DNA of 10,022 bases from Malacoplasma sp. (GTDB taxonomy: Bacteria; Bacillota_I; Bacilli_A; Mycoplasmatales; Mycoplasmoidaceae), in contig JAIDMU010000220.1 in the NCBI GenBank assembly GCA_029050415.1, forward strand, positions 1 through 10,022. The letters run 5' to 3'. The first letter of the stretch is position 1; the number at the start of each line of letters is the position of its first letter. The translations under genes were made by a program, and so were the position numbers. The notes under the pieces were generated by a model. It made no database searches. It had not been told where the DNA came from and saw nothing but the letters and a program-made list of their open reading frames with translations. Below are positions 3,753 to 7,330 of this stretch, piece after piece.

Positions 3753-3797
3753 TTTTACAACCATACATTATTTATATTTATATTAAAGTAAGTTTTT

Positions 3798-3826
3798 ATT
3801 TTATTATTGAATTATTTTTTTATCAA
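3798..3826 (-). promoter_or_regulatory. Sigma-A-type promoter of the phospho-beta-glucosidase gene
   Basis: Read on the minus strand, TTGATA (3826-3821) is separated by exactly 17 bases from TAAAAT (3803-3798). Both are one mismatch or close to the -35/-10 consensus. Transcription would start near 3791, leaving a leader of about 27-39 bases. That leader has no room for an antiterminator hairpin of the LicT/BglG type, and no cre-like operator is obvious. Confidence 0.65.
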
Positions 3827-3897
3827 TTTTAACTTTTTAGATATTTAATATCCTTAATATTTAATAACAAAAAAATAAATTATTAAAAAACAAGTAA

Positions 3898-3906
3898 TGC
3901 TAAAAT
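3898..3906 (+). promoter_or_regulatory. Extended -10 promoter of the cysteine peptidase gene
   Basis: TGCTAAAAT is an extended -10 element (TGn + TAAAAT) with no clear -35, as expected when the TG motif is present. It points to a start near 3912 and a leader of about 24 bases. This promoter probably also serves the downstream lipoprotein genes. Confidence 0.5.
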
Positions 3907-3924
3907 CAAGTTAGATAGATAATT

Positions 3925-3929
3925 AGGAG
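3925..3929 (+). promoter_or_regulatory. Shine-Dalgarno AGGAG before the peptidase ORF
   Basis: AGGAG lies 6 bases before ATG 3936. It is one of only two strong ribosome binding sites in the window and fixes the start of the peptidase gene, including its hydrophobic N terminus. Confidence 0.8.
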
Positions 3930-3935
3930 AAAATA

Positions 3936-5213
3936 ATGAAGCTTTGATCTTCAAGTTTTGGTATCATATCTATTTTAGTATCGATGTTAAGTGGTATGGG
4001 GATTTCTGGTGTAAATGAATCTAACATTCAATATCATGTAGCACCTGATTGTGTTTCAACATCTGATTTTATTGAAAATAATTTTCAAACTTTTGTGTCT
4101 TCATATAATGAAAGTGTAGAAGATAGTAATTTATTTCTAAATGCAACATATGTAGAATCTAAAAAAAGTGTTACAAATCTAGATGATAATTCACAAGCAA
4201 TATATTTAGATTTTAATGATGATAATGGATATGCATTAATTGGTAATAATTATTTAATATTAGATTTTGCTACAACAGGAGATTTATATTATCTAAAAGA
4301 TGTAGATAATTTATTATTTACTCAAACTGATGGTTTTGTATATGAAACAGAATTCGGTTATGCTAGATATGATTTTGAATATGTTACTGAAAAAGATTTG
4401 GAAAATGTGGAATTTGGTGGTTCATTTAGAAAATATAAAGGTCAAAAAAAATTAGGTTCAGGACAAATAGAAAAACCTAATGATTATATTAAAGATAGAT
4501 ATGGGTCTGATTATAAAAAAGGCAAAGAAGTTATATTAAATAATTTTCAAAATGTTGTGTAGGACAAATATAGTATTTACACAAACAGAAAAACAGGATA
4601 TAGAGAAGGAAATTGTGTCCTTTCTTCCATGTATGGTGTTATGCAATATTTTAGAGACAATAAATCAACAACAAAATTACTATACGGGAATACAGAAATT
4701 AACCCTGAAAATGATTATTTTTATAAATCGGTAATTAAAGACTTTTATGTGGATAATGTAACTGTACCAAAAATATATGCAGTGATTAGAGAAAATGCAA
4801 AGAAATTTGGTTATACAACACAAGCCTCAGTGTTGTCATCTTTAAATATGGCAAATATTTTTACAAATACAATGAGAAGTTTTGGTTATTCAACAAAAAT
4901 TTTTCAAAAATATGCTAATATGGTTCTTTTTTGATCTTTTGGATCTCAAGTAAAAGCTGAGATTGATGCTGGATGTCCAACAATTTGAAACCCAATAATA
5001 AGTCAGTATGGTCAACCTCATTCTCTGATTGTAAAAGGATATTTACAATATTATAAAGAAAAATCTTTTTTATTTTTTAAGTGAAAAGAATATAAAAGCC
5101 TTATGGTTGTAAGTGACAATTGGGATGAAAGAAATTTGTATTTTGACTTAACAGCATTTGGACAATTTGAAAGATTAGGTGTATTTTTAAAAGTGAGAAA
5201 TTATGCATATTAA
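3936..5213 (+). pseudogene. Exported papain-fold-like cysteine peptidase, interrupted by an in-frame UAG
   Basis: The frame runs from ATG 3936 to TAA 5211 (425 codons) with one internal stop, TAG 4560-4562 (codon 209). Both halves are in the same frame, so this is a nonsense change, not a frameshift. Residues 1-25 (MKLWSSSFGIISILVSMLSG) form a signal peptide or membrane anchor. About 30-208 look like a propeptide or accessory region. The catalytic half has GNCVLSSMYGVMQYF (Cys227), PHSLIVKGY (His362) and VVSDNWDE (Asp394/Asn395). This Cys-His-Asp/Asn order and spacing resembles papain-fold C39/C47 (staphopain-like) peptidases and the putative cysteine peptidases of mollicutes; the exact family is an inference. 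Reinitiation at ATG 4629 would lose Cys227, so without UAG readthrough no active enzyme is made. Apart from the stop the gene shows no decay, suggesting a recent lesion, suppression or a sequence error. The start overlaps nothing; the end overlaps the first lipoprotein gene. Confidence 0.75.
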
Positions 5214-5217
5214 TAAA
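5141..5217 (+). repeat. Source copy of a repeated junction: peptidase 3' end plus lipoprotein start
   Basis: This stretch encodes the last residues of the peptidase (FERLGVFLKVRNYAY, stop 5211) and the first codons of lipoprotein 1 (ATG 5203). The same sequence, diverged and about 9 bases shorter, recurs at 5746-5813 and 6340-6406. In those places the peptidase part no longer belongs to a gene. Confidence 0.85.
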
Positions 5218-5736
5218 CTGTTTAAAAAAATAATTAAGCCAGCTTTTTTGTTTTGTCCAGTTGTTTGCATTCCTTTTATTTCTACAGCTTGTCAAACAAC
5301 AGGAACGAAATCTTATTATGTTAATAGTGAATGAGAGTGTTATGGATCAATTTTTAAATTTGAGTCAGTTGATTACAAATTAATAGAAAATGATTTGGAA
5401 ATAAAAGTAAGTATTGCTACAATTCCTTCAAAACAAGGTCTTAGACTTGATGGATATCTTAGTTCTAGATACTACTTTACTACCTTACCAAATAAAGAAA
5501 AAAGCACAGAAGAAAGTGGTTTTGATATAACAGAAACAATTTATAGCAAACAAACTTATATTTTTGTATATTATATATCTATTTCAACACTTAATGATTT
5601 AAAAAAAGAATATGATTATTTGCCAATTGAGAATAATAAATTATGTATTCCTTTTCAAATTTATATATTAGGTCCTTATGATATTGAATTTAAAATAGAC
5701 ATTTTGGAATTTATTGATAATTCAACTAAAAATTAA
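5203..5736 (+). CDS. Small lipoprotein, paralog 1 of a tandem family
   Basis: The ORF encodes 177 residues from ATG 5203, which lies inside the peptidase gene (11-base overlap), so translation may be coupled. Residues 1-30 form a lipoprotein signal: basic MHINKLFKKIIK, hydrophobic AFLFCPVVCIPFIS, then TAC-Q with Cys30 as the likely lipidated residue. The lipobox is not canonical because it has Ser at -3. The mature part has no recognised domain. It contains motifs shared with the next copy: SEWE near the N terminus, FKFESVDYKLIEN, a YFTTLPNKEKS segment, ESGFDI.ETIYSKQTYIFV and a C-terminal EFKI-ILEFID. It is probably an outer-surface lipoprotein. The immediate pairing with an exported cysteine peptidase could mean a substrate, partner or inhibitor role, but nothing in the sequence proves that. 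The Trp of SEWE is UGA. Confidence 0.8.
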
Positions 5737-5745
5737 ATAGAAGAA

Positions 5746-5813
5746 TTTTGATTTAACTATATTTGAAAGATTAGATGTATTTTTAAAAGTGAGAAATTAT
5801 GCATATTAATAAA
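5746..5813 (+). repeat. Vestigial copy of the peptidase gene 3' end before lipoprotein 2
   Basis: Translated in the matching frame this reads FDLT-I-FERLDVFLKVRNYAY-stop, against FDLT-AFGQ-FERLGVFLKVRNYAY-stop in the peptidase. The last 40 or so bases are almost identical, including the ribosome-binding region and ATG CAT ATT AAT AAA. The vestige lies 10 bases after the stop of lipoprotein 1 and has no start of its own. It marks the left edge of a tandem duplication. Confidence 0.85.
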
Positions 5814-6329
5814 ATATTTAAAAAATTATTCAAATCATTTTTATTGTTTTCCCCAGTTGTTTCTATACCTTTTATTTCTACTTCATGCCAATCAACAGGA
5901 TGGCAAGGTCACTGTGTTGGTAGTGAATGAGAATATGATGGAGGAACTTTTAAATTTGAGTCAGTTGATTACAAATTAATAGAAAATAATTTAGAAATAA
6001 AAACAAGTATTGTTATAAATCCACCAAAATATGGTCTTAGTCTTGATGGATATCTTTATGGACTTTACTTTACTACCCTACCAAATAAAGAAAAAAGCAT
6101 AGAAGAAAGCGGTTTTGATATAGCAGAAACGATTTACAGCAAACAAACTTATATTTTTGTACATGATATATCTGTTTCAATGCTTAATGATTTAAAAAAA
6201 GAATATGAGAATTCAACAATTGAAAACAATGAATTAAATGTACTTTTTTTTATGTCTATGTTTGGTCCTCATATTATTGAATTTAAAATAAACATTTTGG
6301 AATTTATAGATGATTCAACTAGAAATTAA
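5799..6329 (+). CDS. Small lipoprotein, paralog 2 of a tandem family
   Basis: The ORF encodes 176 residues from ATG 5799 to TAA 6327 and is clearly homologous to paralog 1 over the whole length. Identical or near-identical blocks include MHINK-FKK, FLLFSPVVSIPFISTSC (lipidation Cys30), SEWE, FKFESVDYKLIEN, YFTTLPNKEKS and ESGFDIAETIYSKQTYIFV. The most divergent stretches follow the Cys (residues 31-45) and a C-terminal segment around residues 140-160, as expected of exposed surface regions. No domain was recognised. The upstream region, with a weak AAAGTGAG ribosome-binding element, was carried along in the duplication from the end of the peptidase gene. The gene is likely cotranscribed with paralog 1; there is no terminator between them. 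Confidence 0.8.
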
Positions 6330-6339
6330 GTAACAAAAA

Positions 6340-6406
6340 TTTTGATTTAACTGTGTTTGAAAGATTAGGTGTTTTTTAAAGGTAAGAAATTATGTATATT
6401 AATAAA
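6340..6406 (+). repeat. Second vestigial copy of the peptidase gene 3' end, before lipoprotein 3
   Basis: This copy reads FDLT-V-FERLGVF and then hits a stop (TAA) because the KVRNYAY part has changed. Like the copy at 5746 it lacks the AFGQ codons, so both descend from one already shortened unit. The ribosome-binding element has become AAAGGTAAG, a better Shine-Dalgarno match than in the other copies. Confidence 0.8.
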
Positions 6407-6956
6407 AAATTTAATAAATTATTTAAATCATTTTTATTGCTCTCTCCAGTTGTTTGTATACCAATTGTTTCTATTGCTTGTAAAACACTTTCTCCACGAA
6501 TTCATTCTATTGGTAGTGAGTGAGTTGTAGGAGAACAAGAAAATCAGTCACTTTAAGTTTAATACATTTGATTACCAAGTAATTGATAGTAATTTAGAAA
6601 TAAAGGTAAGTATTACTATTGTTCCTTCAAAGTATGGATACGATTTATTCATTGATGAAAAAGATAAATTTATTTTTTTCATGCAAACTCCTTGAATTGA
6701 ATTTTTTGCAAATAAAACTAAGAGCATTGAAGAAAGTGGTTTTGATGTTTTTAAAGAAAAAATTTGAAATGAAAGTACTTGTATTTATGTATATGAAATT
6801 CCTCTTTCAACATTTAAAGATTTAAAAAATAAACATGATTATATAACTCAAGATAATCCAAATGTGCTTTTTAGAATTTACATAGATCCATTAAATGATT
6901 TGTTTTTTGAAATTAATGGTTTTGATATAATTGGCAATCAAGATACTAACAATTAA
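6392..6956 (+). pseudogene. Lipoprotein paralog 3, frameshifted
   Basis: ATG 6392 opens a frame with a signal peptide like the other copies (MYINKKFNKLFKSFLLLSPVVCIPIVSIAC, lipidation Cys30) and the conserved GSEW. It then ends at TAA 6554-6556 after about 54 residues. From about 6549 a second frame, one base ahead, continues the family alignment: HFKFNTFDYQVIDSNLEIKVSI, ESGFDVFKEKIW, YVYEIPLSTFKDLKN, and a C terminus ending at TAA 6954. A one-base indel between about 6530 and 6550 therefore splits the gene. Both halves are otherwise well preserved, with UGA Trp codons intact. It is the most diverged of the three copies, so it probably duplicated earliest. The indel could be a recent mutation, a phase-variable slip or an assembly error. 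A short lipopeptide of 54 residues could still be made. Confidence 0.75.
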
Positions 6957-7034
6957 AATTAAATTAAAAAAGTAAAACATAAAATTAATTATTTTTTTAT
7001 CTATATAATTTTTTTATCTTCTAAAATGATATAA

Positions 7035-7052
7035 AAAAATCGCAAGATTTTT
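7035..7052 (+). terminator. Hairpin with GCAA tetraloop (weak terminator or leader structure)
   Basis: AAAAATC-GCAA-GATTTTT is a perfect 7-bp stem capped by a GNRA tetraloop and ending in five T. It could terminate the lipoprotein transcripts. With a single G-C pair it is weak as a terminator, so it may instead be a leader structure of the next operon. Confidence 0.4.
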
Positions 7053-7094
7053 AATTTCCTGTGATTTGAGACAGTAACCCAAAGCATTATAAAT

Positions 7095-7116
7095 AAATTT
7101 ATTAATTAATAAATTT
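7095..7116. repeat. 22-bp perfect palindrome, possible operator
   Basis: The sequence AAATTTATTAA followed by its exact reverse complement TTAATAAATTT gives a 22-bp palindrome of A and T only. Its centre lies where the -35 of the 7126-7131 TATAAT box would be expected, the position of an operator. In DNA this AT-rich some palindromes arise by chance, but a perfect 22-mer is noteworthy. Confidence 0.4.
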
Positions 7117-7125
7117 TTATTATTA

Positions 7126-7131
7126 TATAAT
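7126..7131 (+). promoter_or_regulatory. Consensus -10 box (TATAAT) nearest rpmG
   Basis: This is a perfect TATAAT, with transcription expected near 7139. A transcript starting there would begin with the GUGAAU...AUUCAC hairpin at its very 5' end. The alternative TATAAT at 7004-7009 would make a leader of about 168 bases instead. Neither has a clear TTGACA. Confidence 0.45.
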
Positions 7132-7138
7132 TAATTTA

Positions 7139-7172
7139 GTGAATTAACCCTTAGTGGGTTTTTTTTATTCAC
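7139..7172 (+). terminator. Intrinsic-terminator-like hairpin in the rpmG leader
   Basis: AACCC (7146-7150), loop TTAGT and GGGTT (7156-7160) form a stem followed directly by six further T. An outer stem GTGAAT (7139-7144) with ATTCAC (7167-7172) can enclose it. It contains the only run of three G-C pairs in this spacer. It lies between any plausible promoter and ATG 7184, so it either ends upstream transcription or works as an attenuator. Confidence 0.6.
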
Positions 7173-7183
7173 ACAAAAAAATT

Positions 7184-7330
7184 ATGGCAAAAACAGTAAT
7201 AATGATATGTGAAGATTGTTTATCTAGAAACTACAAAACAAAAACAAATTCAGCTAGAAAAGAAAGACTTGAATTAAATAAGTTTTGTCCTAAATGTAAT
7301 AAAAAAACTTTACATAAAGAAACAAGGTAA
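7184..7330 (+). CDS. rpmG: 50S ribosomal protein L33
   Basis: The 48-residue protein [20 protein letters not shown]... is a typical L33, a small zinc-ribbon protein of the large ribosomal subunit near the E site. The two CxxC pairs (C9/C12 in ICEDC and C36/C39 in FCPKC) are intact, so this is the zinc-binding (C+) form. The [23 protein letters not shown] pattern and the HKETR C terminus are characteristic. The order rpmG-secE-nusG is the conserved bacterial arrangement and supports the call. No ribosome binding site precedes ATG 7184; a terminator-like hairpin ends 17 bases before it. secE follows after 5 bases, so the two are surely cotranscribed. Confidence 0.95.

Follow-up and report, generated by a model that had tools for sequence, protein, structure and literature searches.

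A probable recombining peptidase-lipoprotein surface module in Malacoplasma that carries the tail of its peptidase gene in a shared block

Introduction

Variable lipoprotein families of mycoplasmas have conserved 5′ ends and signal peptides, and variable mature parts. The vsa, vsp/vpma and vlhA families, and mpl/P35 of M. penetrans, are described as multigene families diversified by recombination (PMC4534519), and promoter inversion is named for mpl in PMC8593674. The latter source also describes CysP of M. gallisepticum and M. synoviae as a surface cysteine protease that is considered to have been exchanged between species. In Mollicutes, the MIB-MIP system is presented as a tandem two-gene operon of a protease and its partner, with copies that differ between isolates (PMC11213901). 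In the account of Bacteroides fragilis given in PMC2873492, Bfp peptidases of family C10 are encoded beside, and co-transcribed with, small Bfi partners, two of which are predicted lipoproteins.

The Malacoplasma locus described here resembles vsa, vsp/vpma and mpl in its tandem paralogous lipoprotein genes, whose signal peptides are conserved while the mature parts diverge. It differs from them in that its copies are all direct (+ strand), that a peptidase gene belongs to the unit, and that the end of this upstream gene lies in the conserved stretch. Like MIB-MIP, it repeats a pair made of a protease and a partner; MIP, however, is a serine protease, whereas our locus appears to encode a cysteine-type peptidase, and the Pfam and NCBIfam matches listed include no MIB or MIP family. 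As in SpeB-Spi and Bfp-Bfi, a cysteine peptidase gene directly adjoins a small partner gene, but the C10 match is sub-threshold (best 19.8 of 26 bits) and no similarity between the lipoprotein and a known inhibitor was detected. CysP is a comparable cysteine protease of a mycoplasma, likened here by its description. On the interpretation favoured below, the locus would be a variant of known mycoplasma surface-gene shuffling, set apart by the peptidase gene in its unit and the peptidase tail in the shared block. None of the papers listed by broad word searches of the open-licence literature describes it.

Materials and Methods

The window, that is the whole stretch of DNA analysed, is the complete 10,022-base contig C136 of a Malacoplasma genome of 942 kb in 261 contigs, translated with genetic code 4. 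Ten genomes of the genus and 95 of the family were scanned; the window's own genome is G000 in the 22-mer count, and G004 is a metagenome bin of the same genus. The relatives that carry the locus are all known from metagenome bins or fragmented assemblies. Signal peptides and lipoboxes were read by eye from translations. The lipoprotein C74b was excluded from the six-unit alignments that underlie the mosaic tests. The names rpmG, secE and nusG are those that we presume, from the sequence, for the genes concerned.

Results

The locus consists of a cysteine-peptidase-like gene with a hydrophobic N-terminus (3936–5213, + strand), followed by the lipoprotein genes LP1, LP2 and LP3, and then by rpmG, secE and nusG. 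The peptidase gene is interrupted by an in-frame TAG at 4560–4562, which splits the N-terminal region from the catalytic half; the initial annotation of this DNA made no mention of it. An intact, full-length copy (428 aa) exists in G004, on contig C23. The 3′ end of the peptidase gene overlaps by 11 bases the start of LP1 (5203–5736, + strand, 177 aa). LP2 (5799–6329, + strand, 176 aa) is intact, and LP3 (6392–6956, + strand) carries a frameshift at about 6540–6556 that leaves open pieces at 6392–6556 and 6681–6956. Given the TAG in the peptidase and the frameshift in LP3, LP1 and LP2 are the intact genes of the locus.

All three lipoprotein genes begin with signal peptide-like sequences ending in Cys (ISTAC in LP1, ISTSC in LP2 and VSIAC in LP3), as expected of bacterial lipoproteins. 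The lipobox Cys is invariant in the six full-length members of an alignment from which LP3 was left out, and the LP3 piece has it as well. Two long repeats align LP1 with LP2 at 83–84% identity; the close similarity of LP3 to them is confined to its 5′ end. The mature domain has fold similarity to Ig-like beta-sandwich lipoproteins of the YxkC, YjhA and MPT63 type. A Pfam scan of six members gave one match in one member (UPF0728, E 0.058) and none to a family of this kind. No known peptidase inhibitor of the staphostatin/Spi type was found in Pfam or among the 50 fold matches listed, and the latter absence excludes nothing. A scan of the named genome collection with the lipoproteins found no relative, and they had no match in G001, which we take to be M. 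penetrans HF-2. Weak matches of the lipoprotein profile outside the locus (10 places in 8 genomes including G004, E 5e-6 to 7e-4), several of them of signal-peptide length, were not used.

The identity of the peptidase was examined with profiles and motifs. Scores against PF01640 (peptidase family C10) were 17.8, 19.8 and 15.2 bits, all below the curated cut-off of 26, and PF13529 (peptidase C39-like) gave 23.0 bits, below its cut-off of 24, in one (G004 C23) of the three scanned peptidases that hold the catalytic half. In the three sequences that span all three motifs, GNC, HS and DN follow one another in this order, and they may be the Cys, His and Asn/Asp catalytic motifs of a papain-fold cysteine peptidase. 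On these motifs and the two sub-threshold matches, the protein looks like a cysteine peptidase; it is probably secreted. A search of PDB sequences with the peptidase profile returned a single match, a lectin (E 0.73), and an AlphaFold model was unusable (mean pLDDT 30, four rows in the alignment).

The initial annotation had proposed that the second and third lipoprotein genes are each preceded by a copy of the end of the peptidase gene, and this is borne out. The peptidase tail itself lies at 5141–5213 (+ strand). Copy 2 (5746–5813, + strand) starts 9 bases 3′ of the LP1 stop, and its part before LP2 covers 5746–5798; the 11-base overlap with the lipoprotein start, also part of the earlier claim, is kept there. 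Copy 3 (6340–6391, + strand) starts 10 bases 3′ of the LP2 stop. Both correspond to the last 20 or so peptidase codons, with pairwise identities to the gene's own tail (5141–5202) of 50/53 for copy 2 and 48/52 for copy 3; over a slightly longer stretch, a MAFFT alignment of six units gives 50/56 and 46/55. Their local alignment scores of 38.9 and 32.9 lie far above the maxima of 2000 dinucleotide shuffles each (19.5 and 22.0) and above the best of 2300 other stretches of the contig on both strands (16.1), so that the tails are clearly distinct from random AT-rich sequence. A 109-base query made of the tail and the LP1 start has three matches in the whole genome, all at this locus.

The two copies have a common history. 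Homology starts in both at the same TTTTGA, and the same 9 bases are absent from both (AFGQ becomes I or V), as the initial annotation had noticed from the missing codons; copy 3 lacks one more base. The 120 bases 5′ of the tails score 13.0 and 11.5, no better than chance (shuffle means 16.2 and 15.2, 300 each). The common junction and the common 9-base loss indicate that one shortened tail was copied.

The last part of the tail is also shared more widely. The 22-base block TTTTTAAA(A/G)GT(A/G)AGAAATTATG (5184–5205, + strand, repeated at 5780–5801 and 6373–6394) occurs without mismatch at three places in the window's genome and at three in G004, each of them a lipoprotein start. Since the pattern was written from these places, its informative part is its near-absence elsewhere: one match with two mismatches in G003 and none in the other seven genomes, against two matches of the reversed control in all ten. 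One of the G004 starts, that of lipoprotein C74c, keeps this block although little of the remaining tail can be recognised: its last 24 bases match the window tail at 18/24 and the preceding 24 at 10/24. The lipoprotein C74b is without the block. A conserved motif independent of duplication, which the initial annotation had named as a finding that would speak against its reading, may thus exist in part, for the last 22 bases and not for the tail as a whole. Of the Shine-Dalgarno words tried, a weak one precedes LP3, and none was found ahead of LP1 or LP2. Judged from its sequence, the end of the tail may persist as a lipoprotein start region or for translational coupling. Promoter-like sites in 3760–7200 show no excess (26, against a chance mean of 31.1), and the one terminator-like site found there (7146–7160, + strand) compares with 0.6 expected by chance.

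The affinities of LP3 are discordant along its length. Left of about 6460, 32 sites are LP2-like and 8 are like the lipoprotein on C23; to the right, 16 are LP2-like and 146 C23-like, a split reached in 0/5000 permutations. Mature LP3 matches the C23 lipoprotein at 113/120, 138/150 and 180/206 positions (87–94%), against 61–65% with LP1 or LP2. In these alignments LP3 is a mosaic, with an LP2-like signal peptide and a mature part from the lineage that in G004 follows a full-length peptidase. Its 3′ flank (6957–7075, + strand) is like the flank on C23 that leads into a further peptidase start. LP1 is likewise a mosaic by its site pattern: up to about 5292, in the tail and signal peptide, C74a-like and LP2-like sites stand at 18:5, and beyond, in the mature part, at 22:146 (0/2000 permutations). 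Weaker splits were seen in LP2 between LP3 and LP1 (1/2000) and in C74c between C74a and C23 (8/2000). Such discordance could look greater than it is if the signal peptide is under stronger constraint than the mature part.

The peptidase gene has the same kind of structure. From its start to about 4350, the window and C23 are 91–97% identical per 75 bases; beyond, identity falls to 57–82% except for one step of 67/75 (89%), whereas it is 84–100% with the peptidase on the second G004 contig, C74, which is 95% identical to the window's catalytic half. Compared with C23 in this way, the peptidase is a mosaic of a conserved 5′ half and a variable 3′ half. Its dS between window and C74 is 0.12 (0.06–0.19), far under the 0.42–0.45 (intervals from 0.32 up) of the neighbouring nusG, bgl and membrane protein genes between window and G004, which suggests exchange after the species split. 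Intermediate values were obtained for the peptidase 5′ half between window and C23 (0.25, 0.14–0.38) and for LP3 against the C23 lipoprotein (0.25, 0.11–0.45). For mature LP1 and LP2, dS is 0.22 (0.11–0.35), below that of the species split with intervals that just touch; their duplication therefore probably post-dates the split.

We then compared the locus in relatives. A profile scan found the peptidase in three of the ten genus genomes, the window's own included, and the same three were the only ones among the 95 of the family; a scan of the named genome collection led to C23 and C74. In G004, C23 carries the membrane protein and GH1 family genes that neighbour the locus in the window, then the 428-aa peptidase, a lipoprotein, and the start of a next peptidase at the contig end. 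C74 starts inside a peptidase, continues with three lipoproteins, the third after a short tail remnant, and ends in a peptidase start. A third contig, C4 (L069, 4680–4842), ends in a further peptidase start behind genes that we take to be an ftsZ-like gene and a small membrane gene. As these contigs break at the repeated peptidase 5′ end, we infer from the contig ends that G004 holds arrays of modules. In the window's genome, the matching small gene lies on contig C30, which stops some 130 bases further on, perhaps at a repeat of this type.

G005 offers an independent case of the same architecture, by its gene order, with another lipoprotein family and another breakpoint; the profile of the window's lipoproteins found nothing there. 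Its contig C2 starts inside the peptidase and holds this partial gene, a 251-aa lipoprotein, a decayed copy of the last 75 or so peptidase codons, and a second 251-aa lipoprotein. Tail and lipoprotein form a direct repeat with a spacing of 1032 bases. The dead peptidase copy (about 225 bases) is conserved at 209/225, a count that leaves out the first 43 bases of the peptidase piece (19/35 identical), where the similarity ended; the third positions of the mature lipoproteins agree at 169/226 (P = 1.7e-7). A passive relic of the same age as the lipoprotein pair should not exceed its silent sites in conservation; the tail region has therefore probably been copied or converted since, and the tail copy is no clock for the duplication. 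In the window, the corresponding comparison of tails 1 and 2 (50/53) with LP1-LP2 third positions (124/146) tends in the same direction but is not significant (P = 0.09), and against all mature sites (363/438) P is 0.03.

In G002 the island is missing: on contig C21 (L068, 4148–5649) the membrane gene is disrupted, and what remains of the GH1 gene (bgl) directly precedes rpmG. A 52-base stretch of G002 that matches the LP2 start (E 9e-7) could be left over from a lipoprotein start; being AT-rich, it was not counted. G007 gave no peptidase match, and its contig C66 ends just short of the place. At the other edge of the region, the window contig starts inside an SF1 helicase-like gene (11–1183), with two stops at 5–10, at the contig edge; 119–1180 matches PDC-S53, a candidate phage-defence protein, in its C-terminal part (positions 559–893 of 900, E 1e-112). 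In L016 (1–1924), two genes that by eye resemble type I restriction-modification subunits stand beside the same membrane gene in place of the helicase, which might make this a second variable site.

Discussion

We favour, with a probability of roughly two in three, the interpretation that the locus is a repeated, recombining peptidase-lipoprotein surface module in which the tail lies within a shared block. In each module, the end of a cysteine-peptidase-like gene would overlap the beginning of a lipoprotein gene. Two stretches would be conserved among copies, the peptidase 5′ half on one side and the tail, lipoprotein start and signal peptide on the other, and the catalytic half of the peptidase and the mature lipoprotein would differ. 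Homologous recombination between these direct repeats could copy, delete and swap the variable parts. The window would then be a shortened array, with one broken peptidase and three lipoproteins, of which LP2 and LP3 have the tail only. In a possible order of events, a short unit of tail and lipoprotein would have arisen after LP1 and lost 9 bases, and would then have been duplicated; a crossover in the signal-peptide region would finally have fused the terminal short unit with an older lipoprotein gene, once equipped with its own peptidase, with deletion of the intervening DNA. Selection for variation, or for the start context, may also have acted.

The initial annotation had read the locus as a clear record of gene-family birth, in which one shortened unit was recently amplified. 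A single tandem duplication of this kind, with its left breakpoint in the last peptidase codons, would have let unequal crossing-over amplify the short unit with the tails as passive passengers. The junction and 9-base loss common to tails 2 and 3, the low dS between LP1 and LP2, and the direct repeat of G005 all agree with it, and the copying of one shortened tail holds. It is nevertheless unlikely as the whole history: mature LP3 is closest to a lipoprotein that stands behind a full peptidase, and the dead tail of G005 is too conserved to match the age of its lipoprotein pair. With LP3 and LP1 both mosaics, descent of all three genes by simple amplification is not supported, and it is the dS of LP1 and LP2, not the tails, that makes a duplication after the species split probable. 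The record of family birth is therefore only partly supported. If instead each lipoprotein once had a full peptidase, the tails would be leftovers of deletion, kept for the start region. The full module and the short remnant before C74c in G004 fit such losses, as do the survival of the 22 bases at a start that has nearly lost the remaining tail, the broken peptidase of the window and the eroded bgl of G002; yet the common junction and 9-base loss ask for one event followed by copying, not for two deletions, and deletion as the sole process appears improbable. For LP3, the loss of a full peptidase copy is favoured. The tail before LP2 may have come along with a duplication, or it may be what a deleted full peptidase left behind.

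The window contig itself could be misassembled or a mixture of strains. An assembly of 261 contigs, the repeats, and a nonsense codon and a frameshift at the locus are what one would see if reads of several strains or modules had been merged into one contig. This is very improbable, because the architecture recurs in G005, which was assembled separately, and because the C23-like 3′ flank of LP3 continues into the rpmG-secE-nusG region that is common to G004, G007 and G002. The locus also lacks the marks of an inversion system: among the 25 longest of 76 inverted-repeat pairs, one joins LP1 and LP2 (5330–5359 with 5816–5845, 30 bases, 73%), and it is comparable to the other AT-rich pairs.

Within the recombining module, a more specific form can be proposed tentatively, and we consider it rather doubtful: catalytic half and mature lipoprotein might be exchanged independently of each other, through the peptidase 5′-half block and the block of tail and signal peptide. 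If so, different cells would hold different pairs of enzyme and partner, and, through the gene overlap, a single stretch would combine recombination block, start region and signal peptide.

A relic of an upstream gene is readily taken for the dated footprint of a duplication. At this locus the relic region appears to recombine apart from the gene behind it, and so dates nothing by itself. As a recombining module, the locus would illustrate the rebuilding of a surface region from shared blocks in a reduced genome. Should it vary among the cells of one population, this uncultured lineage would provide one more system of surface variation.
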